In this document: piece by piece, positions 44,959 through 61,406 of the stretch | Position numbering within the stretch: position 1 is the stretch's first letter | Layout: each line of letters starts with the position of its first letter | NCBI GenBank assembly: GCA_021731085.1 | Contig: JAKFYB010000013.1 | Coordinates: 152,125-216,124, forward strand | Reading direction: 5' to 3' | DNA: 64,000 nt | Source of the DNA: Dehalococcoidia bacterium | GTDB lineage: Bacteria > Chloroflexota > Dehalococcoidia > DSTF01 > JACRBR01 | Position numbers and translations under genes: made by a program | The notes under the pieces: model-generated | What the model was told of the DNA's origin: nothing | The model's database searches: none | Seen by the model: only the letters and a program-made list of their open reading frames with translations

Positions 44959-45441
44959 CTAGTGTTCGGTCTGGCCGCGCAACAAATCCACGGCGTGCGG
45001 GAGCTGGTCAATGACAGCGCCGAGGTTCTCCCGAACAGCCTTTTCGCTGCCGGGAAGATTGAGGATGAGCGCGCGTTTCCGCACTACGGCGACGGCGCGA
45101 CTGAGCATCGCCTTCGGCGTCTGTTGCATACCGGCTGATCGCATCGCTTCGGCAATGCCGGGAACGATGCGGTCTGCGATATCGAGCGTCGCCTCCGGCG
45201 TGACGTCGCGTTCGGCGAGTCCAGTGCCGCCGGTCGTAAGAATGAGGTCGATCTCAGCGCTATCAGCCCAGGCCGAGAGCTTCGCGCTGATTTGATCCCG
45301 CTCGTCAGGGATGATCTCGCGGCGAATGACATCCCCACTTTTACCCACAAGTTCCGCGATGGCGTTGCCGCTCGTGTCGGCACGTTCACCGCGGCTGCCT
45401 TTGTCGCTGATCGTGAGGATTCCGACGCGCATCTTCTGCAT
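44959..45441 (-). CDS. MogA/MoaB molybdopterin adenylyltransferase-type protein
   Basis: ATG 45441 starts a 160-residue protein beginning MRVGILTISDKGSRG, the conserved start of the MogA/MoaB family. TTGGTGLAERDVTPEAT holds the GGTG and the conserved Asp and Thr of the active site; LNLPGSEKAVRENL is the C-terminal signature. MogA adenylates molybdopterin in cofactor synthesis; MoaB is of similar fold. TACGAT lies six bases upstream of the ATG and no ribosome site is seen, so it is probably leaderless. It is divergent from the mraZ operon. Confidence 0.9.
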   Translation of the reverse strand: MQKMRVGILTISDKGSRGERADTSGNAIAELVGKSGDVIRREIIPDERDQISAKLSAWADSAEIDLILTTGGTGLAERDVTPEATLDIADRIVPGIAEAMRSAGMQQTPKAMLSRAVAVVRKRALILNLPGSEKAVRENLGAVIDQLPHAVDLLRGQTEH

Positions 45442-45447
45442 GCGGCC

Positions 45448-45453
45448 ATCGTA
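45448..45453 (-). promoter_or_regulatory. -10 element TACGAT for the mogA/moaB gene (leaderless)
   Basis: TACGAT lies six bases before the ATG, without an intervening ribosome-binding site. Confidence 0.45.
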
Positions 45454-45545
45454 ACAGCGACAGAGACGCTGTGACGAGTCGGTCCGGCTCCCGTAGGCCA
45501 ACAACTAAAGTGGTAAGAAATGGATCAAATAGTCGAGCCAGGTGA

Positions 45546-45573
45546 TTGACATCGAATCATGTGGTGGTAGGAT
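45546..45573 (+). promoter_or_regulatory. sigma-70 promoter of the dcw cluster
   Basis: TTGACA (45546-45551) and TAGGAT (45568-45573) are separated by 16 bases, 69 bases before mraZ. The -10 hexamer overlaps the first of three MraZ-type boxes. Confidence 0.65.
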
Positions 45574-45589
45574 ATGGGGACGCGTGGGA
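45565..45589 (+). promoter_or_regulatory. MraZ binding site: three TGGKN direct repeats at 10-bp spacing
   Basis: TGGTA at 45565, TGGGG at 45575 and TGGGA at 45585 are each followed by five spacer bases, giving an exact 10-bp period. MraZ is known to bind TGGGN repeats separated by five bases and repress its own operon. The site overlaps the -10 region of the promoter, so bound MraZ would block RNA polymerase. Confidence 0.75.
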
Positions 45590-45641
45590 AACCCTTGGCT
45601 CAGGATGGAGCCTGTGAGCAACTGGCAGGACCCAAAGCTCC

Positions 45642-46082
45642 GTGCATTTCGTTGGGACGTTCGACTATGTGATGGACGAACGCGGGAGAGTGCCCCTCCC
45701 CCCGGTCTATCGCGACGCCTTCCGCGAGGGGCTGGTGCTCAGCCAGGGACTCCCCGACCAGTGCCTGCGGGTGTACACACGGCAGGCGTTCGACAAGCTG
45801 GCCCAGGAAGTACTCGAGGACTCGACGCTGACCCAGGGTGGGCGCGACCTCCGGCGGGGCTTCTTCGGCACGGCGCGGCACGCGGAGCTCGACAAGCAGA
45901 ACAGAGTGCTGATTCCGCCTCCGTTACGGCAAGTAGCCGGACTGGAGAAGCAGGTCCAGGTCGTCGGGAACGGCGAGTATCTGGAGATCTGGGCGGTCGA
46001 GGGCTGGGAAGCCGAATCTGCAAGACTTATGTCCAGCATTGGTTCGACGATGGAGTCGGCCAGCGAACGGCGGAAGCAGTGA
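45642..46082 (+). CDS. mraZ: MraZ, transcriptional regulator of the dcw cluster
   Basis: This is a 146-residue protein from GTG 45642 with the two SpoVT-AbrB-like half domains. The first has FVGTFDYVMDERGRVPLPPVYRD and the second AELDKQNRVLIPPPLRQVAGL; each contains the conserved DxxGR or DxxxR turn that forms the DNA contact. It is the first gene of the division and cell-wall cluster and sits below the three-repeat site it should bind. Its stop overlaps a possible GTG start of rsmH. Confidence 0.93.
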   Translation: MHFVGTFDYVMDERGRVPLPPVYRDAFREGLVLSQGLPDQCLRVYTRQAFDKLAQEVLEDSTLTQGGRDLRRGFFGTARHAELDKQNRVLIPPPLRQVAGLEKQVQVVGNGEYLEIWAVEGWEAESARLMSSIGSTMESASERRKQ

Positions 46083-46084
46083 TT

Positions 46085-47017
46085 ATGCCCAGCGTCACCC
46101 ACATCCCGGTCATGATGCGCGAAGTGCTCGACGCGCTCGATGTGCAGCAGGGCGGCCGTTATGTGGATTGCACGCTCGGCGGCGCAGGCCACGCCGAGGC
46201 GATACTCGAGCGTTCAGCGCCAGGTGGCACGCTGCTCGGCATCGACGCGGATCCCGCCGCGATCGAACGCGGTCGCGAGCGTTTGGCCCGCTTCGGCGAC
46301 GGCGTACGCCTCGTCCAGGGCAACTTCAGCGATGTCGGCGATATCGCCATGCAAATGGAGTTCGCACCGGTGAACGGTGTGCTGATGGACCTCGGGCTCT
46401 CGTCGTTTCAGCTTGCCGAAGAGCGTGGATTCAGCTTCCGCGACGACGCGCCGCTCGATATGCGGTTCGGAAGCGAAGGGCTGAGCGCAGCGGAGATTGT
46501 GAATGAATGGGGCGAGGCCGAGCTGGCCGACCTCATCTTCAAGTATGGAGAAGATCCGGCGAGCCGAAGGATCGCCCGTCGCATTGTCGCAAGCCGCCCA
46601 ATCGGGACGGCTGTTGAACTAGCCAAAGCCGTCGAGCAGGCCGTGGGTAGAAGGGCCAATCTGAAATCCCACCCCGCCACCAGGACGTTTCAGGCCCTTC
46701 GCATTGCGGTCAATCAAGAGCTGGCATCGCTGGCCACCGCACTTCCTCAGGCCTACGGCCTGCTCGGCTTTGGATCCCGCCTCGCTGTCCTCAGCTATCA
46801 CTCGCTGGAGGACCGCATCGTCAAGGAGTACATCGCGCGCGAGTCGCGGGACTGCATCTGCCCCCCGGCCCTGCCGGTGTGCCAGTGCGGCCACAAGGCA
46901 ACGCTGCGGCGTGTCACGAAGGGCGCGCTGACGCCGACGCTGGCGGAAGTCGCCGCGAACCCACGAGCGCGAAGCGCACGCCTCCGCGCCGCCGAACGCA
47001 TCGCAGTAGCGGCATAG
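46085..47017 (+). CDS. rsmH: 16S rRNA (cytosine1402-N4)-methyltransferase RsmH
   Basis: This is a 310-residue SAM-dependent methyltransferase (MraW). HIPVMMREVLDAL starts it, VDCTLGGAGHAEAIL and GIDADPAAI are the SAM-binding motifs, and DLGLSSFQL with GFSFRDDAPLDMR are signature blocks. HSLEDRIVKE is near the end, and a Cys-rich patch (CICPPALPVCQCG) follows. ATG 46085 was taken; a GTG at 46079 overlapping the mraZ stop is also possible. The open frame extends upstream through mraZ but is not coding there. Confidence 0.93.
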   Translation: MPSVTHIPVMMREVLDALDVQQGGRYVDCTLGGAGHAEAILERSAPGGTLLGIDADPAAIERGRERLARFGDGVRLVQGNFSDVGDIAMQMEFAPVNGVLMDLGLSSFQLAEERGFSFRDDAPLDMRFGSEGLSAAEIVNEWGEAELADLIFKYGEDPASRRIARRIVASRPIGTAVELAKAVEQAVGRRANLKSHPATRTFQALRIAVNQELASLATALPQAYGLLGFGSRLAVLSYHSLEDRIVKEYIARESRDCICPPALPVCQCGHKATLRRVTKGALTPTLAEVAANPRARSARLRAAERIAVAA

Positions 47018-47026
47018 AGGGGCGCG

Positions 47027-47461
47027 ATGGTAGCCATCCACCGCCGCGCTCTTCCCGCCCCACGCGCATTCCTCAAACAGCGTCAGGGTTGGCTCCTGCT
47101 TGGGCTCGCAGGCGTGTTGGCGATAGGCGTGATGGCGTTCCAGGTGAACCAACTGAGCTCCGCCACTGTGACGTCATACGAGATCAATGCGCTGAATCGC
47201 GAACGCGCCGCCAAGCAGGCGGAGAATCACGAGCTGGAGAAGGAAGTGGCGCGACTGTCATCCCTTGCGCGCGTAGACATCGAGGCCCGCGTGCGGCTAG
47301 AGATGGTGCCGGCGACGCGCACGATGTACGTCGAGGTCGCACAGCCGCTGCCGGAGCAGCAGACGTTGCCAACACGCTTCCTACCGACGAGCGGCGATGA
47401 AGCAGCCGCCGCAGAGGATTCGATCTGGACGCGGTTCCGGCGCGCATTGCCGCTGTTCTAG
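47027..47461 (+). CDS. ftsL: FtsL-like septum protein
   Basis: This is a 144-residue bitopic protein. It has a basic cytoplasmic start, one helix (about residues 22-40), then a leucine-zipper-like coiled coil (NALNRERAAKQAENHELEKEVARLSSL) and a short tail. FtsL links FtsQ/DivIB and FtsB/DivIC to the FtsWI synthase. The identification rests on position between rsmH and ftsI plus this layout; primary sequence is weakly conserved in the family. Confidence 0.82.
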   Translation: MVAIHRRALPAPRAFLKQRQGWLLLGLAGVLAIGVMAFQVNQLSSATVTSYEINALNRERAAKQAENHELEKEVARLSSLARVDIEARVRLEMVPATRTMYVEVAQPLPEQQTLPTRFLPTSGDEAAAAEDSIWTRFRRALPLF

Positions 47462-47528
47462 AGGTGGCGCCGTTCAGGCGTGGTGTGTGGGTGGCTGCTC
47501 GCGAAGGGCGCGAGCGGATTGAGGGCAG

Positions 47529-49262
47529 ATGTTCGGACAACGCGGACGCATGAGCGTACGAATATTCATCCTTGGCGGAGCTTTTGCCTTCTGTGCGATC
47601 GCGCTCGGCGTTCGGGTGGCCTACGTGCAGCTCGTTCGCGCGGACCACTACCAGAGCGAAGCACGAAACGAGCACTTCGGCCAACAGGAAATCCGCGCGC
47701 CGCGTGGCGCCATCCTCGACCGCAACGGCTATCCGCTCGCAACGACGGTCGATGCATATGACATCTGGATCAACCGCGAAGAGTGGCAGAACATGGCCGA
47801 CGCTCAACGCGCGGCCGCCTTCATCGCGCCGCTGATCGGCCGAGAGCCGGCCGAGCTGTTGACTGCGGTGCGGGGAGAGGACGAAGGCCTCTACCTCGCG
47901 TTCGGCGGCCTCGACTTCAACAAGGGCGCGACGCTCCACGACGCCGATGCCCCCGGCCTACGTGTCGTCCTGACGACCAAGCGCGCACACCCGGAAGGTG
48001 ACCTCGCGTCGACCGTTCTCGGGTTCGTTGGGCGCGATCATGTCGGTCTCACGGGCATCGAGGCGGACTTCGACGCGGAGCTCGGCGGCACGCCGGGCAC
48101 GATCTATTTCGAGCGCGACAGCATCGGCAACCGCATCCAACTCGGCGCGGAACGCGTCGGTCAGGCCCCGGAGGCCGGTGGCGATATCCAACTGACCATC
48201 GACCGCTACATCCAGCGCCTCATCGAAGGCGAATTGGAAACGCAGATCGCACAGACCGGGGCCCTTGGCGGCACAATCATCGTGATGGACCCGAAGACCG
48301 GCGAGGTGCTTGGCATGGCCAGCGCGCCGGGCTTCCGATTGTCACATCTCGACCTCAATGGCGATGTGAACCAGGCACTCTTCAAGAACCGCGCCGTCAC
48401 AGACGTGTACGAACCGGGTTCGGTATTCAAGACGCTCACGGCGGCGATGGCCATCGACCTCGGGCTCGTGACACCTGAATCGACGTACGTGGATAACGGT
48501 GCGGTGTACATCGGCGAGTCCACAATTCGGAACTGGGATCTGAGCACAAACGGCCCAGTGACCGTGACCCAAATCCTGCAGCGCAGCCTCAACACCGGCG
48601 CGACGTGGATGAGCGGCCAGGTCGGCGCCGACAACTTCTATCGCTACGCGAACGACTTCGGCATCGGCCGCGCAACGGGCGTCGGTCTAGGCGGAGAGCC
48701 GGACGGCCTGGTGCGCGACAACACAGACCCTGCGTGGGCGGAGGTCGATCTTGCGACCAACAGCTTCGGCCAGGGCATCGCTGCCACGCCACTGCAGGTG
48801 ATCACCGCGATCGCTTCGTTCGCCAACGGCGGCAAGCTGATGCGACCGTACATCGTGAAGCAGATGGACACGCCTGACGGCGCGCGCACGTTCGATCCCG
48901 TCGTCGTGCGACAGGTGGTCAAGCCGGAGACCGCGGCGACGATCTCGGACATCATGAATCAGGTGGTTGAAGGCATCCCCGGCCACCTCGCGGCGATCCG
49001 GGGCTATCACGTCGCCGGCAAGACAGGCACGACGACTGACGCGACGCTCGCTGATGGCGCGGTGCTCAAAGGCAACGTGGCGTCGTTCATCGGCTTCGCG
49101 CCGGTCGACGATCCGCAGATCATCATGCTGGTTAAGCTGGACTACAAGGAAGACCGCCTTGGCGGCCAGTTCTCGGCGCCGGTGTTCGCACATCTGGCCC
49201 CCAACATTCTTGCGTACCTGGGTGTGCGGCCGGAGGGACCGCAGCTAGTTACAACGCAATAG
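47529..49262 (+). CDS. ftsI: FtsI / PBP3, septal class B transpeptidase
   Basis: This is a 577-residue class B PBP for septal crosslinking. There is one helix near residues 10-33, then the PBP dimer domain (RAPRGAILDRNGYPLATT), then the transpeptidase domain with S298-x-x-K301 (PGSVFK), SLN at 353-355, and KTGT in VAGKTGTTT. No PASTA repeats follow, in contrast to many Gram-positive homologues. ATG 47529 follows GAGGG. murE, which usually comes next, is missing. Confidence 0.93.
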   Translation: MFGQRGRMSVRIFILGGAFAFCAIALGVRVAYVQLVRADHYQSEARNEHFGQQEIRAPRGAILDRNGYPLATTVDAYDIWINREEWQNMADAQRAAAFIAPLIGREPAELLTAVRGEDEGLYLAFGGLDFNKGATLHDADAPGLRVVLTTKRAHPEGDLASTVLGFVGRDHVGLTGIEADFDAELGGTPGTIYFERDSIGNRIQLGAERVGQAPEAGGDIQLTIDRYIQRLIEGELETQIAQTGALGGTIIVMDPKTGEVLGMASAPGFRLSHLDLNGDVNQALFKNRAVTDVYEPGSVFKTLTAAMAIDLGLVTPESTYVDNGAVYIGESTIRNWDLSTNGPVTVTQILQRSLNTGATWMSGQVGADNFYRYANDFGIGRATGVGLGGEPDGLVRDNTDPAWAEVDLATNSFGQGIAATPLQVITAIASFANGGKLMRPYIVKQMDTPDGARTFDPVVVRQVVKPETAATISDIMNQVVEGIPGHLAAIRGYHVAGKTGTTTDATLADGAVLKGNVASFIGFAPVDDPQIIMLVKLDYKEDRLGGQFSAPVFAHLAPNILAYLGVRPEGPQLVTTQ

Positions 49263-49367
49263 CCAGAACGGGCAAACGGCTCGCCGTCAGCGGCGGCCGA
49301 TCTCCCAGCCGCTACGGCGGCAGCCGCCTGATCGCAGGCGGGCGCGTCCGATGGCAGGCGGACGAGC

Positions 49368-50729
49368 ATGATTACTGCGAAGGAAATCGTAGCCGCGCTG
49401 CGGCCGACGCTTCTCGAAGCGCCGGAAGACGATCGCGCGCGCTTCGAGCATGCGGTCGTCGACTCGCGCAAGACGGGCGCGGGCGATCTCTTCATCGCGC
49501 TGCCTGGCGAGAACGTCGATGGCCATGACTTCGTCGCTGATGCAGCGGCGCACGGCGCCGGCGGTGCGATCGTCGAGCACAAAGTGGACTCCGACGTCGC
49601 GCAGTACGTCGTGCCGGACGCACTCGCGGCGCTGCAGGCGATCGCACGGGCGCGGCGCGCGTCGCTCACGCAGCTCAAGGTCGTTGGCGTGACCGGCAGC
49701 GTAGGTAAAACGACGACAAAGGAACTAACCGCAGCCGTGCTTGCGTCGAAGTACGCGGTGCTGAAGAACGAAGGCAACTTGAACAGCGAGATTGGTATGC
49801 CGCTGGTGCTGCTCGAACTGAAGCCCGAACACGAGCGCGCCGTGCTCGAAATGGGGATGTGGGCGCCGGGCGAGATCACGCTGCTGTGCGACCTCGCGCG
49901 ACCGGAGACAGGCATCGTGACGAACGTCGGGCCATCGCACCTCGAACGGATGGGGACGATCGAAGCGATCGCCAACGCCAAAGCCGAACTCGTCGAAGCC
50001 CTGCCGGCAGATGGCACTGCGATCCTGAACATCGACGATCTGCGAGTCGCATCGATGGTCGCGCGCACAAAGGCCAATGTGATGACGTACGGCCTGGCAG
50101 ATAACGCAGACATCCGCGCGCTCGACATCGAGAGCGGCGGACTCGCTGGCGTGCGGTTCACACTGGCGCACGGCGACGCACGGGCGACGGTCTACTCGCG
50201 GTTGCCGGGACGAGCGATGGTCCACAACGGGCTCGCGGCCGCAGCGGCTGGCATCATCGACGGCATCCCGGTCGAAGATGTCGCAGCGGCGCTGAGTGCG
50301 GCCCAGATCCCGACGAGGCTGGCGGCACACGCTGGGCCGAACGGCTCGACGATCATCGACGACACCTACAACGCGAGCCCAAGCTCCATGCGTGCCGCAC
50401 TCGAGCTGCTCGGCGAGGTCGCGGGCCGCAAGATTGCCGTCCTCGGCGACATGCGAGAGCTTGGTTCGGCAGAACACGACGGACACGTCGAAGTCGGACG
50501 CGTCGCGGCCGAGTCGGCGGACGCGATCTACGCCGTCGGCGACCTCGGACGCGTGATCGGCGAGACCGCGCGTGATGCCGGGCACACGAATGTGAACTTC
50601 GTCGTCGACAAGGACGTGCTCGCGAAGACGCTACTGCCCCAACTCGCGCCGGGCGACGTAGTGCTCGTAAAGGGATCGCGCGCCCTCGCGTTGGAGACCG
50701 TCGTCGAACAACTGGAGGCGCTTGCATGA
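49368..50729 (+). CDS. murF: MurF, UDP-MurNAc-tripeptide D-alanyl-D-alanine ligase
   Basis: This is a 453-residue Mur ligase adding D-Ala-D-Ala to the UDP-MurNAc-tripeptide. DSRKTGAGDLFIALPGENVDGHDF is the substrate-binding N-domain typical of MurF, VTGSVGKTTTKELT is the ATP P-loop, and NEGNLNSEIGMP is the MurF-specific loop. DDTYNASPSSMRAAL marks the C-terminal domain. It starts 105 nt after ftsI (that gap holds only GC-rich sequence with no gene) and overlaps mraY by four bases. Confidence 0.93.
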   Translation: MITAKEIVAALRPTLLEAPEDDRARFEHAVVDSRKTGAGDLFIALPGENVDGHDFVADAAAHGAGGAIVEHKVDSDVAQYVVPDALAALQAIARARRASLTQLKVVGVTGSVGKTTTKELTAAVLASKYAVLKNEGNLNSEIGMPLVLLELKPEHERAVLEMGMWAPGEITLLCDLARPETGIVTNVGPSHLERMGTIEAIANAKAELVEALPADGTAILNIDDLRVASMVARTKANVMTYGLADNADIRALDIESGGLAGVRFTLAHGDARATVYSRLPGRAMVHNGLAAAAAGIIDGIPVEDVAAALSAAQIPTRLAAHAGPNGSTIIDDTYNASPSSMRAALELLGEVAGRKIAVLGDMRELGSAEHDGHVEVGRVAAESADAIYAVGDLGRVIGETARDAGHTNVNFVVDKDVLAKTLLPQLAPGDVVLVKGSRALALETVVEQLEALA

Positions 50730-51697
50730 CGCACGCACTGCTCACAGGCGCCATCGCGGCGATCATCGCAGCGCTTCTCGGCGGGCCAGTCATCAAGTTC
50801 CTACAGGCGCGCGGGCTCGCAAAGGCAATCAGCACAGACGGTCCAGAGTCGCACTTGTCCAAGGCGGGCACGCCGACAATGGGCGGCTTGCTGATTTTCG
50901 GCGTCGCACTAGCTGTCGCGCTGGTGTCGGCCGTGCCCAAGGACACCGATGCACTACTGCCGATCGTTGTCGCCGCGATCCTGCTCGGCATCGGCGTGTT
51001 CGATGACGCGGGCACGCTTGTAGACCGCGAGAAACGCGAAGCTCACGACCGCATGAACATGATCATGAAGCTCGTCGGCTTCACAGGCATCGCGATCGTC
51101 GCCGCGCTGCTGCTGTACGGACCGATGGACGCACCGCGCATGTTCATCCCGGGCCAGGACAAGCACTACGACATTGGCATCCTCTACATGCTGGTCGCCA
51201 TCGGCGTGATCATCTCGGTGATCAGCGCCGTCGGCGTGACAGACGGGCTCGACATGCTCGGCGGCGGGACAACCGGAGTGGCGTACGCCGCCTTTGGCGC
51301 AATCGCCTTGATGCAGGACCAGGTGGCCGTCGCCGCGTTCGCGTTTGCCGTCTTCGGTGCGCTGGTCGGCTTTCTCTACTGGAACGCCTTCCCCGCGCGT
51401 CTCTTCATGGGCGATGCCGGCTCGCTCCCGCTTGGTGGCGGACTGGCGATTCTCGCGCTAATGACCGGCTGGTGGACGCTAGTGCCGGTCATCGGGATCG
51501 TCTTCCTGATTGAGATTATGTCCGTTTGCATCCAGATCTTCGTCTTCAGGACACAGAACAGGCGTCGGTTCTTCCGCATGGCGCCCATCCACCACCATTT
51601 CGAGGAATTGGGTTGGCATGAAGTGACTATCACGGCGCGGTTCATCGCGTTGGGGATCGTTGGGGCGCTCGTGGGTGTGGCGCTGGCGTTTTGGTGA
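50726..51697 (+). CDS. mraY: MraY, phospho-MurNAc-pentapeptide transferase
   Basis: This is a 323-residue protein with ten helices that makes lipid I. Conserved spots: SKAGTPTMGGLLIF near residue 47, FDDAGTLVDREKREAHDRMNM (the Asp pair; the usual DDxxK reads slightly differently), VTDGLDMLGGGTT with the catalytic Asp, MGDAGSLPLGG and HHHFEELGWHE near the end. The start overlaps the murF stop. The next gene, murD, is 141 nt away, with a hairpin and a palindrome between. Confidence 0.93.
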   Translation: MTHALLTGAIAAIIAALLGGPVIKFLQARGLAKAISTDGPESHLSKAGTPTMGGLLIFGVALAVALVSAVPKDTDALLPIVVAAILLGIGVFDDAGTLVDREKREAHDRMNMIMKLVGFTGIAIVAALLLYGPMDAPRMFIPGQDKHYDIGILYMLVAIGVIISVISAVGVTDGLDMLGGGTTGVAYAAFGAIALMQDQVAVAAFAFAVFGALVGFLYWNAFPARLFMGDAGSLPLGGGLAILALMTGWWTLVPVIGIVFLIEIMSVCIQIFVFRTQNRRRFFRMAPIHHHFEELGWHEVTITARFIALGIVGALVGVALAFW

Positions 51698-51756
51698 TTT
51701 ATGTCACTTTGAGGGCACCTCGAGTAGGTCGCTCAGGCGGAGACCACGAGCGAGAA

Positions 51757-51772
51757 CCCGCGCTCCAGCGGG
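51757..51772. terminator. hairpin between mraY and murD
   Basis: CCCGC and GCGGG flank six bases, about 60 nt after mraY. No T-run. It precedes a perfect palindrome and may be a weak terminator. Confidence 0.35.
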
Positions 51773-51788
51773 CAAACGAGAACCACCA

Positions 51789-51809
51789 CCAGATACGAAT
51801 CGTATCTGG
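51789..51809. promoter_or_regulatory. perfect 21-bp palindrome upstream of murD
   Basis: CCAGATACGA and its exact reverse complement are separated by a single A. It lies 30-50 bases before the murD ATG, just upstream of TTGACA at 51815-51820. The symmetric form suggests an operator controlling the second half of the dcw cluster; a hairpin in RNA is also possible. Confidence 0.55.
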
Positions 51810-51838
51810 GGCGCTTGACAGGTAAATGATAACGTGAT

Positions 51839-53245
51839 ATGACAGGTGAACGAGACAGCCTGGTGGGGAAACGGGTGACCGTTATCGGTCTCGGAATTGA
51901 GGGCGTCGACGCTGCTCGCTATGCCGTGGCTCACGGCGCCGAAGTGCGCGTCCTCGATTCGAAGAACGAAGCGACACTCGCCTCCCGCCTCGAAGAACTC
52001 GAGGGTCTTCCTATTACATACGTACTTGGGCGGCCACAGACGATCGACGACATCGCTGGCAGCGATGCGGTTTTCGTCTCCCAGAGCGTGCCCCTGAAGC
52101 TGCCGCTCCTCGCCGAAGCCCGCGAACGCGGCATCCCGCTCACATCAATGACCCGCTACTTCCTCGAGCACTGCCCCGGTCCGACGATCGGCATCACCGG
52201 CAGCAGCGGCAAGACGACGACCACGGCCCTCGTCGCGGCGATGCTCGCCGAGGACGGCCGGTCATATCGCGTCGGCGGCAACATGGGCAAGGGGCTATTG
52301 GGGCTGCTCGATGGCATCGACGCGAAGACGTGGACGGTGCTCGAGATGAGCCACACGCAGCTCCAGATGACGGACCGAAGCCCGCACATCGCGGCGATAC
52401 TGAATATCACGCCGAACCACCTCGATCAGTTCTCGTGGGACGAGTACGTCGCGCTGAAGCAGAACATCGCCCGCTACCAGAGCGCCAAGGACATCGTGGT
52501 GCTCAACGGCGACGACGCGCTCTGCGTCGAAGCGGCGGACCTCACACCCGCAACGAAGTGGTCGTTCACCATGACAGCCTCCCTGCCGGGGCATGGAACA
52601 TTCCGTCGAGACGCTGCTGTCGTCCTCCGAACAAGTAGAGGTGACGAAGCAGTCGTCGCCCTGGACGAGATCCCACTGCGCGGCGAACACAACATCGCTA
52701 ATGTTCTCGCGGCCACAGCGATTGCGGCAGCAGCAGGGGTGCATCGGGACGACATCGCTCAGGCGATCACGAAGTTCAAGCCGGTCGCACACCGACTCGA
52801 GGAGGTCGCGGAGATCGATGGCGTGCGGTGGGTGAACGACAGCATCGCGACGACGCCGGAACGTACGCTCGCCGGCATCCGATCGTACGATGAGCCGATC
52901 GTGCTGCTCCTCGGCGGGCGCGACAAGGACCTTCCGAAGGACGAACTCGCACAGGAAGCGCTGCAGCGCTGCGTCGGCGTCGTCCTCTTCGGCGAGAGTG
53001 CCGCGCTCTTCGAGGCTGCATTCGCGGCCAACGCCGGATTCGCTGCCGAGCCACCGCAAATGACGCGCGTCGAGACGCTGGCTGAGGCTGTCGCCGCGGC
53101 TGCGGAGATGTCCGGCGCGGGCGATGTCGTGCTGCTGTCGCCGGCGTGCACTAGCTTCGACGCCTTCCCGAACTTCGAGGCGCGGGGCGAGGAGTTTCGG
53201 CGCCTCGCACGCGCGATGGCATCGACGAGCGGGGAGGGCGACTGA
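51839..53245 (+). CDS. murD: MurD, UDP-MurNAc-L-alanine:D-glutamate ligase
   Basis: This is a 468-residue Mur ligase adding D-glutamate. VTVIGLGIEGVDAARYA is the N-domain Rossmann start, ITGSSGKTTTTALV is the ATP P-loop, and NDSIATTPERTLAGI is the MurD signature. GGRDKDLP is near the end. ATG 51839 lacks a ribosome site, and the AT-rich upstream TGATAA could be the -10 of a leaderless start. It shares its stop with the ftsW ATG region (one-base overlap). Confidence 0.92.
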   Translation: MTGERDSLVGKRVTVIGLGIEGVDAARYAVAHGAEVRVLDSKNEATLASRLEELEGLPITYVLGRPQTIDDIAGSDAVFVSQSVPLKLPLLAEARERGIPLTSMTRYFLEHCPGPTIGITGSSGKTTTTALVAAMLAEDGRSYRVGGNMGKGLLGLLDGIDAKTWTVLEMSHTQLQMTDRSPHIAAILNITPNHLDQFSWDEYVALKQNIARYQSAKDIVVLNGDDALCVEAADLTPATKWSFTMTASLPGHGTFRRDAAVVLRTSRGDEAVVALDEIPLRGEHNIANVLAATAIAAAAGVHRDDIAQAITKFKPVAHRLEEVAEIDGVRWVNDSIATTPERTLAGIRSYDEPIVLLLGGRDKDLPKDELAQEALQRCVGVVLFGESAALFEAAFAANAGFAAEPPQMTRVETLAEAVAAAAEMSGAGDVVLLSPACTSFDAFPNFEARGEEFRRLARAMASTSGEGD

Positions 53246-54507
53246 TGGCAGTCACCGCGCACCCCACGCGCCTGAAGACGTCCGGCCCTGACTACATGAT
53301 CGTTGCTGCGGTCACGGTGCTGGTCGTGATGGGGATTCTCGCCGTCTACAGCAGCAGCTTCGCGCTGGGGCTGCTGGAGTTCGGCGACGCGAACTACTTC
53401 GTCGTGCGCCAGGTGATGTTCGCTGTGCTTGGCGCGACGGCGATGTGGCTGCTGATGAAGATGGACTATCGCCAACTGCGATGGCTCAGCCCGCTGCTGA
53501 TGCTAGCGGCGATCGCTGGCCTCGTGGCCGTGCTGCTGCCAGGCATCGGCGTCGAGCGCAACGGAGCAGCACGTTGGATCTATCTCGGCGGGCCGGTGCC
53601 GCCGCTGCAGCCGTCAGAGTTCGCCAAGCTGGCGCTCATCATCTACGTCGCGGCATGGCTCGCGGGCCGTGGCGACAACATCAAGACCTGGTGGCTGGGA
53701 TTCTTCCCGTGTGTGCTGCTCGTCGGCTTTGTCGCCGGACTCATCATGATGCAGCCGGACATGGGCACGACCATCGTGATCGTCGCGACGACGATGACGA
53801 TGGTGTTCGTCGCCGGAGCATCGCTCACGCACCTGGCAGCGTTTGGCGGCGTAGCGGGCGTCGTCGCGACGATCCTCGCTTTCAGCGGTGACTATCGCGC
53901 CGATCGCATCTTCGCGTTCACGAGCGCGGAGGATGATCCGAGCGGGCGCGGCTTCCACACGCTGCAGTTGCTCATCGCGCTCGGCAGCGGCGGCGTCGAT
54001 GGCATCGGGCTTGGCGCGAGCAGACAAAAGTTCTTCTACGTGCCGGGCGCGCACACGGACGGCATCTTCGCCATCATCGGCGAAGAGCTGGGGTTCATCG
54101 GCTGCGCAATCGTCCTCGGCGTGTTTGCATTCCTCATGGTGCGCGGCTTCCGCGTGATCTTCCGAGCGCGCGACGACTTCGGCGCGCTGCTCGCCGTCGG
54201 AATTCTCTCGTGGATCGGATACCAGGCGGTGATCAACATCGGTGGCGTCACACGCATGCTGCCGCTGACGGGCATCCCGCTGCCGTTCGTGAGCTATGGC
54301 GGCTCTGCCCTGCTGGCGATGCTCGCGGGCATAGGCATCCTCCTCAGCGTCTCGCGCTACGGCGTCGACGGAAAAGCCGTGGGTGGCAAGCCCACCACCG
54401 TCGACGGTTCTGACACCATCGTGCGTCGCGTGAAGAAGCGACCGGAGCGCGGTGAAGCGCCTCCACGGCAAACGAGGCAGCGACGGGCGCCCGAGGCAAC
54501 GACGTGA
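53245..54507 (+). CDS. ftsW: FtsW, SEDS septal peptidoglycan glycosyltransferase
   Basis: This is a 420-residue SEDS protein with ten helices, the septal counterpart of RodA. ARWIYLGGPVPPLQPSEFAKLALI and MMQPDMGTTIVI are conserved. GSGGVDGIGLGASRQKFFYVPGAHTDGIFAIIGEELGFIG includes the usual central signature, and GIPLPFVSYGGSALL is the C-terminal motif. It acts with FtsI. The end is a basic cytoplasmic tail of about 40 residues (Lys/Arg-rich). It lies between murD and murG in normal dcw order. Confidence 0.93.
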   Translation: MAVTAHPTRLKTSGPDYMIVAAVTVLVVMGILAVYSSSFALGLLEFGDANYFVVRQVMFAVLGATAMWLLMKMDYRQLRWLSPLLMLAAIAGLVAVLLPGIGVERNGAARWIYLGGPVPPLQPSEFAKLALIIYVAAWLAGRGDNIKTWWLGFFPCVLLVGFVAGLIMMQPDMGTTIVIVATTMTMVFVAGASLTHLAAFGGVAGVVATILAFSGDYRADRIFAFTSAEDDPSGRGFHTLQLLIALGSGGVDGIGLGASRQKFFYVPGAHTDGIFAIIGEELGFIGCAIVLGVFAFLMVRGFRVIFRARDDFGALLAVGILSWIGYQAVINIGGVTRMLPLTGIPLPFVSYGGSALLAMLAGIGILLSVSRYGVDGKAVGGKPTTVDGSDTIVRRVKKRPERGEAPPRQTRQRRAPEATT

Positions 54508-54523
54508 GCGCGGAAGAGGTGCG

Positions 54524-55621
54524 GTGAGAGTGGTACTGGCTGGAGGCGGCACTGGTGGACATGTGTACCCGGGCCTTGCCATCGCCAGAGCGCTGGGTGT
54601 CGAGATGAAGGCGCGCAGCGAGAACCTCGACCTGCTGTACATCGGCGTCCGCGGCCGCATCGACGAGACGATCGTCCCGCGCGAAGGCATCGCGTTCAAA
54701 GCGGTTTCCGCGGGCCCGTTGCGTGTGTCATCACCGATCAGCTTCGTGACGAACGTCGCCAAGCTCGGCCTCGGCGTGCTGCAGTCACTCTGGGCGTTGA
54801 TGCGATTCAAGCCGGACGCAGTGTTCGCGACCGGCGGGTACGCGAGTGTGCCTGTCGGTGTCGCAGCGCGACTGCTGCGCAAGCCACTGGTCGTATTCCT
54901 CCCCGATGTCACGCCTGGTTGGGCCGTCCGCCTCCTGTCCAAGCTCGCGACGCGGATGACCACAACGTCGGAACGCGCTCTGGAGTATCTGCCGGCCAGC
55001 AAGACCGTGGTCGTCGGATATCCCGTGCGCGACGAGTTCTGGTCGCTGACGCGCGACGAAGCACGCACCCGCATGGGCCTGCCGCTCGACGCGAAGGTGC
55101 TGCTCGTCACGGGTGCCAGCCTTGGCGCGCGGAAGATCAATGAAGCCGTTGTCGACGGGCTGCCGCAATTGTTGGAGCAATGCATCGTCGTGCACGTGAC
55201 GGGCGCGTCCGACGAAGCATGGGCAAACGAACAGCGCGCCATCGTCACAGGAAGTGCGACGCGCGAGCGGTACATCGTGCGCGGCTACATCGATGACATG
55301 CCGTCGGCGATGGTCGCTGCGGACGTTGCCGTGATGCGCGCTGGCGCTTCCACGCTTGGGGAACTGCCCGCGGCAGGCCTTCCTGCGGTGCTGGTGCCCG
55401 GCGAGTACGAAGGCTGGTCGCAAGCGCCAAACGCCGAGTACCTCCAGGAGCAGGGCGCAGCGGTGATGCTTCGAAACGCGGAGCTGTCGACGCTGGCCGG
55501 CATCGTGACGGGCCTGCTCGCAGACAACGCACGGCTTGCATCGATGAGCGCGTCGATGCGCACTCTCGCGCGGCCCGATGCGGCGCGCGATCTCGCGCGC
55601 ACGCTGATGGAGGCCGCATGA
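54524..55621 (+). CDS. murG: MurG, UDP-GlcNAc transferase
   Basis: GTG 54524 follows GAGG and begins RVVLAGGGTGGHVYPGLA, the exact N-terminal signature of MurG. The 365-residue enzyme adds GlcNAc to lipid I to form lipid II at the inner membrane face. FATGGYASVPVGVAA and GASLGARKINEAV are conserved, and RAGASTLGELPAAGLPAVLVPGEY is the donor-site block. An open frame reaching 54452 overlaps ftsW and is not used. It overlaps murC by four bases. Confidence 0.92.
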   Translation: MRVVLAGGGTGGHVYPGLAIARALGVEMKARSENLDLLYIGVRGRIDETIVPREGIAFKAVSAGPLRVSSPISFVTNVAKLGLGVLQSLWALMRFKPDAVFATGGYASVPVGVAARLLRKPLVVFLPDVTPGWAVRLLSKLATRMTTTSERALEYLPASKTVVVGYPVRDEFWSLTRDEARTRMGLPLDAKVLLVTGASLGARKINEAVVDGLPQLLEQCIVVHVTGASDEAWANEQRAIVTGSATRERYIVRGYIDDMPSAMVAADVAVMRAGASTLGELPAAGLPAVLVPGEYEGWSQAPNAEYLQEQGAAVMLRNAELSTLAGIVTGLLADNARLASMSASMRTLARPDAARDLARTLMEAA

Positions 55622-57021
55622 CACGCACTGCGACGACGGCCACCATTCCGCACCGCGTCCACCTCGTGGGCATCGGCGGCGCCCACATGTCGGCGATCGC
55701 GCAGATTCTGCACGCCTGGGGCCATGCGATCACTGGCTCAGACCAGAAGCAAAGCGCCATGACCGACAAGCTCGCGGCGCTCGGCATCAGCGTACGGATC
55801 GGACACGCCACGGAGAACGTGGGCGATGTCGAACTCGTCGTCTTCACGTCAGCCGCGCACGGCGACAATCCCGAGATCACGGAGGCGTCACGCCGCGGCA
55901 TACCCGCCATCAAGCGCGCTGAGATGGTGGCTCGCCTCATGCAGGGGCGATACAGCATCGCCGTCGCCGGGACGCACGGGAAGACGACGACGAGCGGCCT
56001 CATCGCGCACATGCTCGTCGAGGCAAAGCTCGACCCGACCTACCTCATCGGCGGCGAAGTGCGCAGTCTCGGAACGAACGCGGCGCCAGGCAACGGCCGC
56101 TACATCGTCGTCGAGGCGGATGAATACGATCGCGCGTTCCTGAGCTACACGCCGGACGTCGCCGTCGTCACGAACATCGAGCCAGACCATCTCGACATCT
56201 ACGGCACGATCGAAGAGCTGCAGGCGGCCTTCGCGCAATTCATGGCCGCTTCGCCGGACGACGGACACGTCATCGCATCGGCCGACAGCCCGCGCCTGCG
56301 CGATACCGTCGCCGCGGGCGGAATGACGGCGCACGACGTGTCGACGTATGCCGTCGATCAGGAAGCGACGTGGCGCGCGACGGGCATCGTGCCGGTCGAA
56401 GGCGGCCAGACGTTCTCCGTCTCACACCTCGGCAACCTGATTGGCACCTTCAAGATCACACTGCCTGGCAAGCACAACGTCAGCAACGCGCTTGCCGGCA
56501 TCGCCGCCGGCTCGACGATCGGCATCGAGCACGACGTCATTCGCGCGGCGCTCGCGACGTACCGCGGCGCGCAGCGGCGCTTCGAGTTCGTCGGCGAGGC
56601 GAATGGCGTCACCGTCATGGACGACTACGCGCACCACCCGACGGAAGTACGTGAGGGAACGATCGCGGCCGCTCGACAGGCATTCCCAGGACGCCGCCTC
56701 GTGCTGCTCTTCCAACCGCACACGTTCACGCGCACCGCGTACCTGCTCGATGAGTGGAAGGCCTGCTTCGCCGGTGCCGACGCGCTCTACATCACGCACA
56801 CCTACGCGGCTCGTGAAGACGCTGACGCCGGGCTGTCCGGTCGTGACCTCGCAGCGAGTATCACTGCGCCGCCGACGACGTACGTCGACTCGTTCGAGGA
56901 AGCGGCGGACAGGCTCGCCGCAGATCTGCGAGACGGCGATGTGTTCTTCACCGTCGGCGCCGGCGACGTTGATAGCGTCGGGCCGATGGTCCTCGACCGG
57001 CTGAAACAGCGAAAGGGTTGA
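55618..57021 (+). CDS. murC: MurC, UDP-MurNAc:L-alanine ligase
   Basis: This is a 467-residue Mur ligase that adds the first L-alanine. HLVGIGGAHMSAIAQIL is its N-domain, VAGTHGKTTTSGLIAHML is the P-loop, and EADEYDRAFLSYTPDVAVVTNIEPDHLDIY is strongly MurC-like. DDYAHHPTEV is the signature in the third domain. In this window MurC and MurD supply the first two stem residues, but no MurE for the third residue is present. It overlaps murG and murB by four bases each. Confidence 0.93.
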   Translation: MTRTATTATIPHRVHLVGIGGAHMSAIAQILHAWGHAITGSDQKQSAMTDKLAALGISVRIGHATENVGDVELVVFTSAAHGDNPEITEASRRGIPAIKRAEMVARLMQGRYSIAVAGTHGKTTTSGLIAHMLVEAKLDPTYLIGGEVRSLGTNAAPGNGRYIVVEADEYDRAFLSYTPDVAVVTNIEPDHLDIYGTIEELQAAFAQFMAASPDDGHVIASADSPRLRDTVAAGGMTAHDVSTYAVDQEATWRATGIVPVEGGQTFSVSHLGNLIGTFKITLPGKHNVSNALAGIAAGSTIGIEHDVIRAALATYRGAQRRFEFVGEANGVTVMDDYAHHPTEVREGTIAAARQAFPGRRLVLLFQPHTFTRTAYLLDEWKACFAGADALYITHTYAAREDADAGLSGRDLAASITAPPTTYVDSFEEAADRLAADLRDGDVFFTVGAGDVDSVGPMVLDRLKQRKG

Positions 57022-58034
57022 CCAGCGTGTGGCAGGAGGCCGCAACAACGGACGTCATGGATGAGCGCTTGATCACCGAGCTGCGCAACATCGCGCCGAC
57101 GAAAGCCGCCGAGCCTTTGTCGCGTCACACGACGTTCGGCATCGGCGGGCCTGCCGACGCATTCGTGACCGTGCGCTCCTCGCAGGAACTGTCGCGCGTA
57201 GTGATGATGACGCGCGAGTTCGCGGCGCCGCTGTTCGTCCTTGGCTCAGGCAGCAACGTGCTCATCGGCGACCGCGGCATACGCGGGGTCGTGATCGACA
57301 ACCAGGCGAAGTCATGGCGCGTAACACCCCTCCACCTCGGCGAGGACAGCCCGGTAGCAATGCCGGCAGCCTTCAAGGACGTCCCGCCCGACGAGTGTAT
57401 GACGCTCTGGTGCGAGTCCGGCGCATCGTTCGCGGCGCTGGCGCGGCAGATGGCCCGCGACGGGTTCGCCGGCATCGAATGGGCCGCGGGCATCCCCGGC
57501 ACGTTGGGTGGCGCCGTCGTCTACAACGCAGGAGCCTACGAGGGCTGCATCGCCGACGTGCTTCTGGCGACATCGCTGCTCACCGGCAGCAACGGCGTGA
57601 AGTCGATGACCAACGCCGAGATGCAGTTCTCCTACCGCAACAGCATCTTCACCCACGGCGCCTGCGAAACGTGCGTCGTCCTGTCGGTCGAGCTAGTCCT
57701 GCGGCGCGGAGACGCGAATACCCTGCTCGCAAAGATCATCGAGTTCGACCGCGCGCGGCTGGCCGCACAACCACGTGGACGTAACAGCGGCAGCACCTTC
57801 AAGAACCCGACCGGTGACAACGCCTGGCGCCTGATCGACGCCGTCGGTCTCCGCGGTCACCGAATCGGCGACGCGAAGATCAGCGAAAAGCATACCAACT
57901 TCATCGAGAACATCGGCGCCGCGCGCGCGGCCGACGTCGCCGCCCTCATGCGCGATGCACAGCGTCGCGTGAAAGAACAGTTCGGCATCGACCTCGAGCC
58001 CGAGGTCGAGCTGGTCGGCGAGGGATTCGAATGA
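57018..58034 (+). CDS. murB: MurB, UDP-N-acetylenolpyruvoylglucosamine reductase
   Basis: This is a 338-residue FAD protein reducing UDP-GlcNAc-enolpyruvate to UDP-MurNAc. RHTTFGIGGPADAFV and LGSGSNVLIGDRGIRGVVI bind FAD. AGIPGTLGGAVVYNAGAYEG and FSYRNSIFTHG (catalytic Ser) follow, and NFIENIGAARAADV near the end holds the conserved Glu. The TTG at 57018 (overlapping the murC stop as TTGA) is used; ATG 57057 is a possible shorter start, with AGGAGG 19 bases upstream. Stop overlaps ddl by four bases. Confidence 0.92.
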   Translation: MTSVWQEAATTDVMDERLITELRNIAPTKAAEPLSRHTTFGIGGPADAFVTVRSSQELSRVVMMTREFAAPLFVLGSGSNVLIGDRGIRGVVIDNQAKSWRVTPLHLGEDSPVAMPAAFKDVPPDECMTLWCESGASFAALARQMARDGFAGIEWAAGIPGTLGGAVVYNAGAYEGCIADVLLATSLLTGSNGVKSMTNAEMQFSYRNSIFTHGACETCVVLSVELVLRRGDANTLLAKIIEFDRARLAAQPRGRNSGSTFKNPTGDNAWRLIDAVGLRGHRIGDAKISEKHTNFIENIGAARAADVAALMRDAQRRVKEQFGIDLEPEVELVGEGFE

Positions 58035-59128
58035 GCACGAAGATGCGCCTCGGCGTCGTCTACGGTGGCCGCTCGGCGGAGCACGAAGTGTCCGTCGTCT
58101 CGGCTTCTGCCGTCCTGCGCGAGGCGGACAGCGCGCGCTTCGAAACAGTGCCGTTCGGCGTCACGGGCGAAGGACACTGGTTGACGCCGCAAGAATCGCA
58201 GATGCAGCTCAAACGCCGCATCGCCCCATACCACAACCGCATGTCGGCCGACGTGCCCTCGCTGCTCGAACGCCAGGATGTGCTCGACGAGCTGCGCGCA
58301 GTCGATGTTGTCTTTCCGCTCGTGCACGGCGTGAACGGCGAGGACGGCACACTGCAGGGCATGCTCGAGATGTTCGGCATCCCGTACGCCGGTTGCGGTG
58401 TCGCGGCGAGCGCCGTGGGCATGGACAAGACACTGCAGAAGCGCCTCTGCGACGAAGCGGGCCTGCGAATCGCGAAGTACATGGTCGTCTTCGAACATGA
58501 ATGGGAGTCCGGGCGCGGCGACGTCATCGCCGCCATCGAGCGCCTCGGCTATCCAGCGTTCGTGAAGCCATCGAACGGCGGTAGCAGCGTCGGCGTCAGC
58601 AAGGTCTCGTCGCGCGAGGATCTCGGCGAGGCGATGCGGCTCGCATTCGGCATCGACCGCAAGGCCGTCGTCGAAGAGACGATCGTCGGGCGTGAGGTCG
58701 AGTGCGGTGTGCTGGGCAACGAGCTTGTCGATGCGTCACCCGTCGGCGAGGTGATCCCCGCCGGCGATTTCTACGACTACCGCGCGAAGTACATCGAAGA
58801 CAGCGCGCGCCTCATCGCACCAGCCGAACTGCCGACCGGCGCCGCCGACCGCATCCGCGAGCGTGCCGTCGCCGCATTCAAGGCCATCGACGGCGAAGGG
58901 TTCGCGCGTGTCGACTTCTTCCTGCCGGAGGACGGCGAGCCTGTACTGATCGAGATCAACACGCTCCCGGGCTTCACGCCGATCAGCATGTTCCCGCGGC
59001 TGTGGGAACTCGCCGGCGTCTCGTACAGCGAACTTATCACGCGCATCGTCGAGCTTGGGCTCGCGCGCGGCGAACGCGACGCGAAGAAGGACAGCGCCGC
59101 AGCGACCGAGGGGGTGGCCAATGCCTGA
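58031..59128 (+). CDS. ddl: D-alanine--D-alanine ligase
   Basis: This is a 365-residue ATP-grasp enzyme making the D-Ala-D-Ala dipeptide for MurF. VVYGGRSAEHEVSVVSA near the start holds the Glu and Ser residues. VFPLVHGVNGEDGTLQGMLEMFGIPYAGCGVAASAVGMDK is the family signature, KPSNGGSSVGVSKV binds ATP, and LIEINTLPGFTPISMFPRL holds the metal site and Asn. The Tyr of SYSEL near the end is typical of D-Ala-D-Ala rather than D-Ala-D-Lac ligases. It overlaps murB and ftsQ. Confidence 0.93.
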   Translation: MSTKMRLGVVYGGRSAEHEVSVVSASAVLREADSARFETVPFGVTGEGHWLTPQESQMQLKRRIAPYHNRMSADVPSLLERQDVLDELRAVDVVFPLVHGVNGEDGTLQGMLEMFGIPYAGCGVAASAVGMDKTLQKRLCDEAGLRIAKYMVVFEHEWESGRGDVIAAIERLGYPAFVKPSNGGSSVGVSKVSSREDLGEAMRLAFGIDRKAVVEETIVGREVECGVLGNELVDASPVGEVIPAGDFYDYRAKYIEDSARLIAPAELPTGAADRIRERAVAAFKAIDGEGFARVDFFLPEDGEPVLIEINTLPGFTPISMFPRLWELAGVSYSELITRIVELGLARGERDAKKDSAAATEGVANA

Positions 59129-59981
59129 CTCCCAGAAGACGCCGGGCAAGTGGCCGTATCGCGCAGGCACGCCGTCGCGAAACAAGCGCGTCGTGAAAGT
59201 GACGGAAGAGCCTCCGCGTGGCGTCCTGCGGCACGAGGAGACAGCAGTCCAGCCGTGGATCACGCCGTTGCAGGCGCGCATTGTGCTGTTTGCCGCCGTG
59301 ATCTCCATGGCGCTGGCGGCGTTGTGGTGGGCGTACCACTCGCCGTACCTCACCGTGCAGAACGTGAGCGTGGTCGGAGCGACAAGCGTGCCAGCAGACG
59401 ACGTACAGCGCGCTGCCAACCTCGACGGTCACAGCACGTTCGGGCTCGATCTCGCGGGCGCAGAGGCGCGCATCGAGGCAATGCCAAAAGTGCGCGCGGC
59501 GACGGTCGAGAAGCTGGGCTGGGACACGGTGCGCGTGACGATCGAAGAGCGCGTGCCCTGGGGTTCGTGGCAGATCAACGGCGTCAACGTTCCCATCGAT
59601 ATCGACGGCCACGTGCTTGATGGCGTCGCTGCGCCGGAAGGGTCGCCCGTGATCCAGGAGATCGACCCCAAGCACGCAATCGCCGCCGGCGACCGCCTCG
59701 ACCCGGGCGCGATTGTGCTGGCCGACCGCCTCCTGCGGGAGTCGGACACGGCGTTCGGACGGCAGGTGCAGGCGTTCCTCTACCGCCAGAGTGCGGGACT
59801 CACGGTGATCCTCGCGGCGCAGGATGTCAACGGGAAGCCGCTGTGGGTGACCTTCGGCGATTCGCGCGACTACGACTACAAGGTGGCCGCGCTGTTCGTG
59901 TTGATGCAGCAGGCGAAGGAACAGGATCTCGCGTTGAACATCGTCGATCTGCGGTTCGGCGATCGGTTGAGCTTTAACTAG
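59121..59981 (+). CDS. ftsQ: FtsQ/DivIB-type cell division protein
   Basis: ATG 59121 overlaps the ddl stop by eight bases and follows GAGGGGG, giving 286 residues. A Lys/Arg-rich cytoplasmic segment of about 50 residues comes first, then one helix (about residues 52-74), a POTRA domain (LTVQNVSVVGATSVPADDVQRAAN, AEARIEAMPKVRAATVEKLGWDTVRVTIEERVPWG), and the FtsQ beta domain. FtsQ recruits FtsL/FtsB to the division site. Position between ddl and ftsA supports the call. Confidence 0.88.
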   Translation: MPDSQKTPGKWPYRAGTPSRNKRVVKVTEEPPRGVLRHEETAVQPWITPLQARIVLFAAVISMALAALWWAYHSPYLTVQNVSVVGATSVPADDVQRAANLDGHSTFGLDLAGAEARIEAMPKVRAATVEKLGWDTVRVTIEERVPWGSWQINGVNVPIDIDGHVLDGVAAPEGSPVIQEIDPKHAIAAGDRLDPGAIVLADRLLRESDTAFGRQVQAFLYRQSAGLTVILAAQDVNGKPLWVTFGDSRDYDYKVAALFVLMQQAKEQDLALNIVDLRFGDRLSFN

Positions 59982-60031
59982 GGAATAGCCGCTGGTCGTT
60001 AGGGATAACGGTAACGGCGCAAGGAGGCAGC

Positions 60032-61276
60032 ATGAGCAGGGGAGGAACGTTCGCTTCTATCGACATCGGGACGACGAAGATCGTCACGGTGGTGGGCGAG
60101 GTGACGAACGAGAACCAGACACGCATCCTCGGCGTCGGCATCGCGCCGTCGGAGGGGCTGTCACGCGGGATGGTCGAGAACATCCGCGACGCAACGGAGG
60201 CAATCCGCGTCTCCGTCGAGAAGGCGGAGAAGTCGAGCGGGACGCGCATTCTCTCGGCCCACATCGGCGTCGCGGGCCAGCACATCGACTGCCTCAACAA
60301 CAGGGGCATCGTCGCCATACCGGACCGCTCGCGGCCGATTATGCCGGACGATGTCGTACGCGTGCTCGATGGCGCGCGCGTTGTAAGCATCCCGACGAAC
60401 CGCGAGATCCTGCACGTCATCCCGCGCTACTACGTCGTCGATGGCCAGGACCACATCTCCGACCCCGTCGGCATGTACGGGACGCGGCTTGATGTCGAGA
60501 CGCACATCGTCACCGGCGTCGAGAGCGCCATCCAGAACCTGCGGCGCTGCGTGCAGGATGCCGGCGTCGAGGTCGACGGCCTCATCCTCGAACCACTTGC
60601 CAGCGCGGAAGCAGTGCTAGACGAGGAAGAGAAGGAGCAAGGCGTCGTCCTCGCCGACATCGGCGGCGGCACGACGGACATCGCGCTCTTCCTCGACGGC
60701 AGTGTCTACCACACGGCTGTGCTGCCCGTCGGCGGCAATCACGTAACGCGCGACATCGTCATCGGCCTGCGCGCGCCCTACCAGGCAGCAGAGGATGCGA
60801 AGCGCAAGTGGGGCCACGCGATCCCAAGCATGGTCGAGTCCAGTGAGGAGATCACGCTCGAAGCCTTTGGCTCAGAAGGGAGCAAGACGGAGCCACGGCG
60901 CCGCCTCTGCGAGATCGTGCAGGCGCGTATGGAAGAAGTGCTCGAGATGGTGACGGCGGAGGTGAAGCGCGCCTGCAACGACGACATCATCTCAGCCGGC
61001 ATCGTCCTCACCGGCGGCGGCGCGAAGCTCGCGGGCATCGACCTGCTCGCCGAGCAGGTGACGGGCTGGCCGGCCCGCGTCGGCGCGCCACGCGACCTGC
61101 ACGGACTGACGGACATGCTGCTCGATCCGGCGTACTCGACGAGCGTCGGCCTGCTGCAGTGGGCCGTGCATGAGGCCGAAGCGAGCGCTTGGCACCAGCC
61201 GTCGCGCGCTTCGCTCGACCTATCGGGCATCAAGAAGCGCCTCGGGAGCTGGGCGAAGGTGCTGTTGCCGGAGTAG
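60032..61276 (+). CDS. ftsA: FtsA, actin-like Z-ring membrane anchor
   Basis: This is a 414-residue actin-like ATPase that tethers FtsZ to the membrane. ASIDIGTTKIVTVVGEV is phosphate motif 1, a long 1C domain (RILGVGIAPSEGLSRGMVENI, IGVAGQHIDCLNNRG) follows, VVLADIGGGTTDIALF is phosphate motif 2, and IVLTGGGAKLAGIDLLAEQVTG is the adenosine motif. The C-terminal amphipathic helix (DLSGIKKRLGSWAKVLL) is the membrane anchor. ATG 60032 follows AAGGAGG. Confidence 0.94.
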   Translation: MSRGGTFASIDIGTTKIVTVVGEVTNENQTRILGVGIAPSEGLSRGMVENIRDATEAIRVSVEKAEKSSGTRILSAHIGVAGQHIDCLNNRGIVAIPDRSRPIMPDDVVRVLDGARVVSIPTNREILHVIPRYYVVDGQDHISDPVGMYGTRLDVETHIVTGVESAIQNLRRCVQDAGVEVDGLILEPLASAEAVLDEEEKEQGVVLADIGGGTTDIALFLDGSVYHTAVLPVGGNHVTRDIVIGLRAPYQAAEDAKRKWGHAIPSMVESSEEITLEAFGSEGSKTEPRRRLCEIVQARMEEVLEMVTAEVKRACNDDIISAGIVLTGGGAKLAGIDLLAEQVTGWPARVGAPRDLHGLTDMLLDPAYSTSVGLLQWAVHEAEASAWHQPSRASLDLSGIKKRLGSWAKVLLPE

Positions 61277-61406
61277 AGGGAAGAAAACACAGAGGCACAG
61301 CGGCACAGAGGTGCTTCTGGAACTTGATGAGGTTCGGTTGGCGCTGTCGCAGGTGTGAGTTGAGTGCGCGCGATAGCGGCGGGCAGGACAGCAAGGAGGC
61401 GGTGAT

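Follow-up and report, generated by a model that had tools for sequence, protein, structure and literature searches.

The operator through which MraZ acts at the E. coli promoter Pmra was reportedly described by Eraso et al. in 2014. According to PMC8475190, MraZ boxes are bound and dcw is repressed in E. coli, and in an mraZ mutant of Mycoplasma genitalium dcw genes are up. PMC7761207 cites one work in which MraZ is called an activator in mycoplasmas, so that the sign of control could differ. The same paper describes a band shift of the mraZ upstream fragment of Burkholderia cenocepacia, with a putative site of four repeats at a 10-bp period, and places the box repeats downstream of the -10 in Burkholderia, as in E. 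coli. For M. gallisepticum, PMC5282649 gives the MraZ site as (AAAGTGKN3)3, and octamers of MraZ are mentioned both there and in PMC7761207. Structures of MraZ relatives have been solved (9qlr, 9qlg, 9sx6 and 1n0e). Inspection of the E. coli MG1655 sequence located the array TGGGA-AATTG-TGGGG-CAAAG-TGGGA, starting 43 bp before mraZ. The sequence-only reading had given as known that MraZ binds TGGGN repeats spaced by 5 nt in E. coli and represses the operon.

The window, i.e. the whole stretch of 64,000 nucleotides of Dehalococcoidia DNA that was analysed, carries a promoter and an array of three boxes situated 77 bp upstream of mraZ, at the head of the dcw cluster (Table 1). The sequence-only reading had placed the -35, the -10 and three boxes with five-base spacers at the positions tabulated, and on re-reading all were exact, five bases separating neighbouring boxes. 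A promoter scan of positions 45440-45700 returned this as the sole sigma-70-type site, with 10 of 12 matches and the TG of an extended -10, while shuffled sequence gave a mean of 0.1 sites; TTGACA, a spacer within 16-18 bp and TGnTAnnnT, as expected of a sigma-70-type promoter with an extended -10, are all present. As for TGGGN, boxes 2 and 3 are exact fits and box 1 reads TGGTA.

Table 1. Features of the mraZ region in the window (window positions; the promoter elements and boxes were read from the sequence)
Feature	Position	Strand	Remarks
TGGTA, upstream partner of the distal element	45511..45515	+	-54 from box 1
Distal A-rich element AAGAAATGGATCAA with TGGAT (45521-45525)	45515..45528	+	candidate auxiliary MraZ box or UP element
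-35 hexamer TTGACA	45546..45551	+	also from the promoter scan; TTGAC in 18/18 order genomes
MraZ box 1 (putative) TGGTA	45565..45569	+	TG forms the extended -10; TA opens the -10 hexamer
-10 hexamer TAGGAT	45568..45573	+	16-bp spacer; TAnnnT in 18/18 order genomes
MraZ box 2 (putative) TGGGG	45575..45579	+	about -5 to -1; TGG in 18/18, fourth base G in 16/18 order genomes
Predicted transcription start (+1)	45580	+	seven bases past the -10; placed from the position of the -10
MraZ box 3 (putative) TGGGA	45585..45589	+	about +6 to +10; TGG in 18/18 order genomes, followed by G in 10 and by T in 8
mraZ, presumed repressor	45642..46082	+	GTG start; PF02381 twice, 87.9 bits; TIGR00242 96.3 bits (cut-off 98.35)
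rsmH (mraW)	46085..47017	+	TIGR00006, 316 bits
Remaining dcw cluster, presumed controlled	47027..63056	+	NCBIfam, Pfam domains, ORFs

Like the E. coli Pmra operator, the array of the window consists of three TGGGN-type boxes, spaced by 5 nt and standing immediately before mraZ at the dcw head. The E. coli boxes lie downstream of the -10 (PMC7761207), whereas box 1 of the window is fused with an extended -10. The B. cenocepacia promoter PmraBc is similar in having 10-bp repeats (seven bases plus three), an MraZ-bound fragment and overlap with the start site, and dissimilar in having four repeats, located downstream of the -10 (PMC7761207). The mollicute site (AAAGTGKN3)3 shares direct repeats with a GTG core, the 10-bp period and the position at the dcw promoter, but its flanking bases differ (PMC5282649, PMC8475190). 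Judged by the E. coli and Burkholderia systems, an array downstream of the -10 is not what the window has, its box 1 overlapping the -10; since the repeats, and not the register, are what MraZ reportedly binds, we take the register of the window as a variant.

The product of mraZ, the first gene of the dcw cluster, contains two MraZ/AbrB-like halves, seen as two PF02381 stretches (cut-off 23 bits), and it did not reach the equivalog cut-off of TIGR00242 (Table 1). All six models matched were MraZ models, with TIGR00242 the best, and the narrow miss is therefore read as divergence rather than as membership of another family. The D..GR and D...R motifs are present, and none of D12, G15, R16, D84 and R88 varies among 13 sequences, that of E. 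coli among them; these residues presumably belong to the DNA-binding face of MraZ. Downstream of rsmH, the gene order is ftsL-like, PBP, murF, mraY, murD, ftsW, murG-like, murC-like, murB-like, ddl-like, ftsQ-like, ftsA and ftsZ, in which NCBIfam models scored above cut-off for murF, mraY, murD, ftsW and ftsZ and below cut-off for ftsL and PBP, the remaining genes being assigned by Pfam domains. From gene order and strand, we infer that the cluster is one operon.

MraZ was found in all 18 genomes of the order that were searched, giving 19 loci, as one genome had two. The arrangement TTGAC-N14-TGGTA-NNNT, with exactly 16 bp between the hexamers, occurred at 18 of the 19 loci, and the same 18 had TGG at +10 and +20 from box 1; these counts, like all others given here, ignore the relatedness of the genomes and hence are not independent. 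The exception, L009, had GTGTA at box 1 and kept TTGACA, the 16-bp spacer, TAGCAT and boxes 2 and 3, suggesting that box 1 is dispensable there or has been lost. In a gapless alignment of 18 genomes, from which the second copy of one genome (L021) was left out, 15 hexamer and box columns were invariant (2.0 bits), namely TTGAC in the -35, GTA at positions 3-5 of box 1, the T that ends the -10 and TGG in both box 2 and box 3; the base preceding box 3 was likewise invariant. Each of the first two bases of box 1 was kept in 17 of the 18 genomes, and the leading T of boxes 1, 2 and 3 in 17, 18 and 18, respectively. Of the 13 columns that separate the -35 from box 1, the one adjoining the box had 1.15 bits and the other 12 had 0.61 bits or less. 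Box 1 and the mraZ match were 69 to 113 bp apart, depending on the locus. Comparison of relatives had been proposed in the sequence-only reading, and it found the boxes, their 10-bp period and the overlap with the -10 kept at 18 of the 19 order loci; the lack of conservation that this reading had named as a refutation was thus not observed. That reading had rightly seen that box 1 overlaps the core promoter; the box it called degenerate is more than that, since TGGTA, fused with the -10, recurs at those 18 loci. It was also noticed that the two mraZ loci of one assembly (L018 and L021, genome G014) had very similar promoters, one of them on a 3.7-kb contig, and perhaps they reflect a mixture of strains in a metagenome bin.

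In the class as a whole, an MraZ match was obtained in 237 of 294 genomes, the 18 order genomes included, and 93 further loci were taken, of which 13 were returned as loci and 80 were chosen among the matches listed; the choice of these 80 favours MraZ genes most like that of the window, and one stretch (L098) had 89 bases only. Three TGG at a period of 10 were present upstream of mraZ at 18 of the 19 order loci and at 55 of the 93 class loci among the matches listed, compared with 8 of 5600 shuffles. Other periods from 5 to 21 gave 0-2 loci each, except 20, a harmonic of 10, at which arrays were found at 5 of the 19 order and 9 of the 93 class loci. The shuffles used for the box survey, the period test and the EM motif search below were all of single bases. 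At 38 of the 93 class loci among the matches listed, the strict three-TGG array and the fused box were both absent, and some class loci lacking the strict array had two good boxes and one poor box. The sequence TGGTANNNTNTGG was found at 18 of the 19 order loci versus 14 of the 93 other class loci. Of the 55 arrays outside the order, 18 had a box 1 whose first base was also the final T of the predicted -10, nine began 11-12 bp past the start of the -10, seven were called in the fused register and ten had no promoter called, these calls being made by consensus only and some being poor. The loci with another register resemble the window in having 10-bp TGG arrays upstream of mraZ, but the arrays are placed differently on the promoter. 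The suggestion of the sequence-only reading that the same MraZ control may operate in this distant lineage is supported by the arrays of the order and the class.

Searching the 3.58-Mb genome with TGG-N7-TGGG-N6-TGGG gave one match, at mraZ, and the reversed control pattern gave two; with K allowed at the fourth base, the genome and control matches were two each. In the window, one mismatch being allowed, there were two overlapping matches, both inside the mraZ array, and 19 of 100 shuffles also reached two. The three-box array alone is thus not rare, and it is the place at the mraZ promoter and the conservation that carry the weight. The one extra site of the relaxed pattern was on contig 10 (L138), with no recognised cell-division gene near it in the ORF list. 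We claim no further members of an MraZ regulon, as the strict pattern was single in the genome and the relaxed pattern matched as often as its control.

Taken with its place and conservation, the array is very probably an MraZ operator that represses the mraZ/dcw promoter and forms part of its core. In relatives MraZ is an oligomeric ring; here it would dock on one face of the DNA, on boxes that start at about -15, -5 and +6 and lie one helical turn apart. Bound MraZ would cover roughly -15 to +10, i.e. the -10 and the start site, and would compete with sigma over shared bases and block polymerase from the start site; the outcome would be negative feedback on mraZ and on the downstream cell-division and wall genes. 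Box 1 may be read twice, its TGG by MraZ and its TG plus TAnnnT by sigma, and such sharing would account for the T, instead of G, at its fourth position.

It may be argued that box 1 is an extended -10 (TGn) and nothing else, the true operator consisting of boxes 2 and 3. TG plus TAnnnT alone accounts for four of the five bases of TGGTA, and in L009, where box 1 has no TGG, the promoter and the other two boxes are kept. However, an extended -10 puts no constraint on the base that separates TG from the hexamer, whereas this base was G in all 18 order genomes (in L009, within GTG), and box 1 stands in exact 10-bp register with boxes 2 and 3. This third base was compared at 77 TTGACA-N13/14-TGNTANNNT sites listed from ten order genomes, nine of them mraZ sites and 68 other sites that are a mix of real promoters and chance; G was found at 9/9 versus 13/68, and a spacer of 16 likewise at 9/9 versus 13/68. 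A fourth-base T is also known from another box, for box 3 is TGGT in 8 of the 18 order genomes. The G at the third base and the T found in box 3 favour a dual-use word, with relatedness weakening the count, and TGG running into TAnnnT seems to serve both as an MraZ-type box and as an extended -10. Dual use is nested within, and less certain than, an MraZ operator repressing the promoter; set against dual use only, an operator restricted to boxes 2 and 3 appears unlikely.

Three further explanations concern the array as a whole. Mycoplasma HsdC, another regulator acting at direct repeats, has a site resembling that of MraZ (PMC5282649), and the boxes might be bound by some other regulator while MraZ acts elsewhere; since the array precedes mraZ itself at most of the order and class loci examined, its strict form occurs just once in the genome and E. 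coli has a matching array, we consider this very unlikely. A quadruplex of DNA or RNA, for which G-rich repeats could be conserved in place of a protein site, needs neither an exact 10-bp period nor a leading T. The enrichment of period 10 and not of neighbouring periods, the conservation of the leading T and the presence of only two Gs in box 1 make a quadruplex highly improbable here, even though one has been described at the Staphylococcus aureus mraZ promoter, with G-rich motifs at the mraZ promoters of several other bacteria (PMC11796246). Least credible of all is the view that the block is conserved as an element of the leader RNA or as coding sequence and not as a DNA site. Box 3 does lie past the predicted start, and a downstream stretch, GGATGGA.., recurs in the family of the window, but boxes 1 and 2 lie upstream of that start, the gap between box 1 and the mraZ match is variable, no Rfam match at the gathering score was obtained in the window, and 10 of 11 folded leaders had z between -1.06 and 1.17, the eleventh (L017) having -2.59. 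Leader RNA as the main cause was rejected on the folding of the 11 leaders and the Rfam result.

Two observations on the leaders may be recorded separately. The stretch GGATGGA-CC..TGAGC lies between the boxes and mraZ in the window (45598-45620) and in L004-L010, with slightly varying spacing, and the folded leaders bearing it had no unusual stability. The mraZ leader of L017 (L017:1401-1520) folded better than all 200 shuffles, unlike the other ten leaders, and contains a GGCCCC hairpin.

Upstream of the -35, 15 of the 18 order genomes have an A-rich motif with TGG (consensus AAAAnATGGGGAAA), lying at -40 to -44 relative to box 1, with 17% expected for each and a search range (-46 to -39) that was chosen after the alignment rows had been seen; in L011, L014 and L020, TGG was absent from this position. 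A pair of TGG exactly 10 bp apart, at -54/-44 or -53/-43, occurred in five of the 18 genomes, i.e. in five of the eight of the window's family. In an EM search, the distal motif had a log-likelihood of 80.9, compared with 40.1-45.1 in eight shuffles, but a control region further upstream scored higher (137.3). The conserved stretch in that region was taken to be the start of a divergent gene; unless this holds, the control region counts against the distal motif, and the shuffles are the sole control. The element lies about four helical turns from box 1, hence on roughly the same face, and may serve as an auxiliary MraZ array, as an UP element or in both roles. It is not general outside the order, where TGG at -45 to -41 was found at 9 of 275 positions, one of the higher values among 21 bins that ranged from 1 to 10 of 275, and part of these nine come from loci with a DnaA-box-like sequence. 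A more elaborate arrangement would have operator and promoter merged into one code and a second phased MraZ array (TGGTA at 45511, TGGAT at 45521) wrapping or looping the promoter, with one MraZ ring, or two, holding both arrays; we regard this combination as rather doubtful.

The sequence TGTGGATAA, which we take to be the DnaA box, was found upstream of mraZ, before the dcw promoter, at L023, L034, L044 and L058 only (4 of 112 regions). The distal element was not called a DnaA box, as TGTGGATAA is absent from the order loci. In L023, L034 and L044, a second near match to TGTGGATAA lay 11 bp further upstream. It is possible that TGTGGATAA at these four loci links replication initiation to dcw.

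A limited search of open-licence papers in PMC found none on MraZ sites in Chloroflexota; PMC8871954 and PMC10608941 contain the terms MraZ, Chloroflexi and dcw. Judged by that limited search, the locus combines a known MraZ system with a new promoter arrangement, the fusion of box 1 with the -10. For this lineage, the explanation that we infer as best is that MraZ represses its own promoter by blocking RNA polymerase. Such autorepression would add a deep lineage, represented here mostly by metagenome assemblies, to the few model bacteria in which MraZ control of cell division has been studied. The fused box suggests that one five-base word may be selected by two proteins at once, and the relatives, which keep the 10-bp array and shift its place on the promoter, would constitute a natural experiment.
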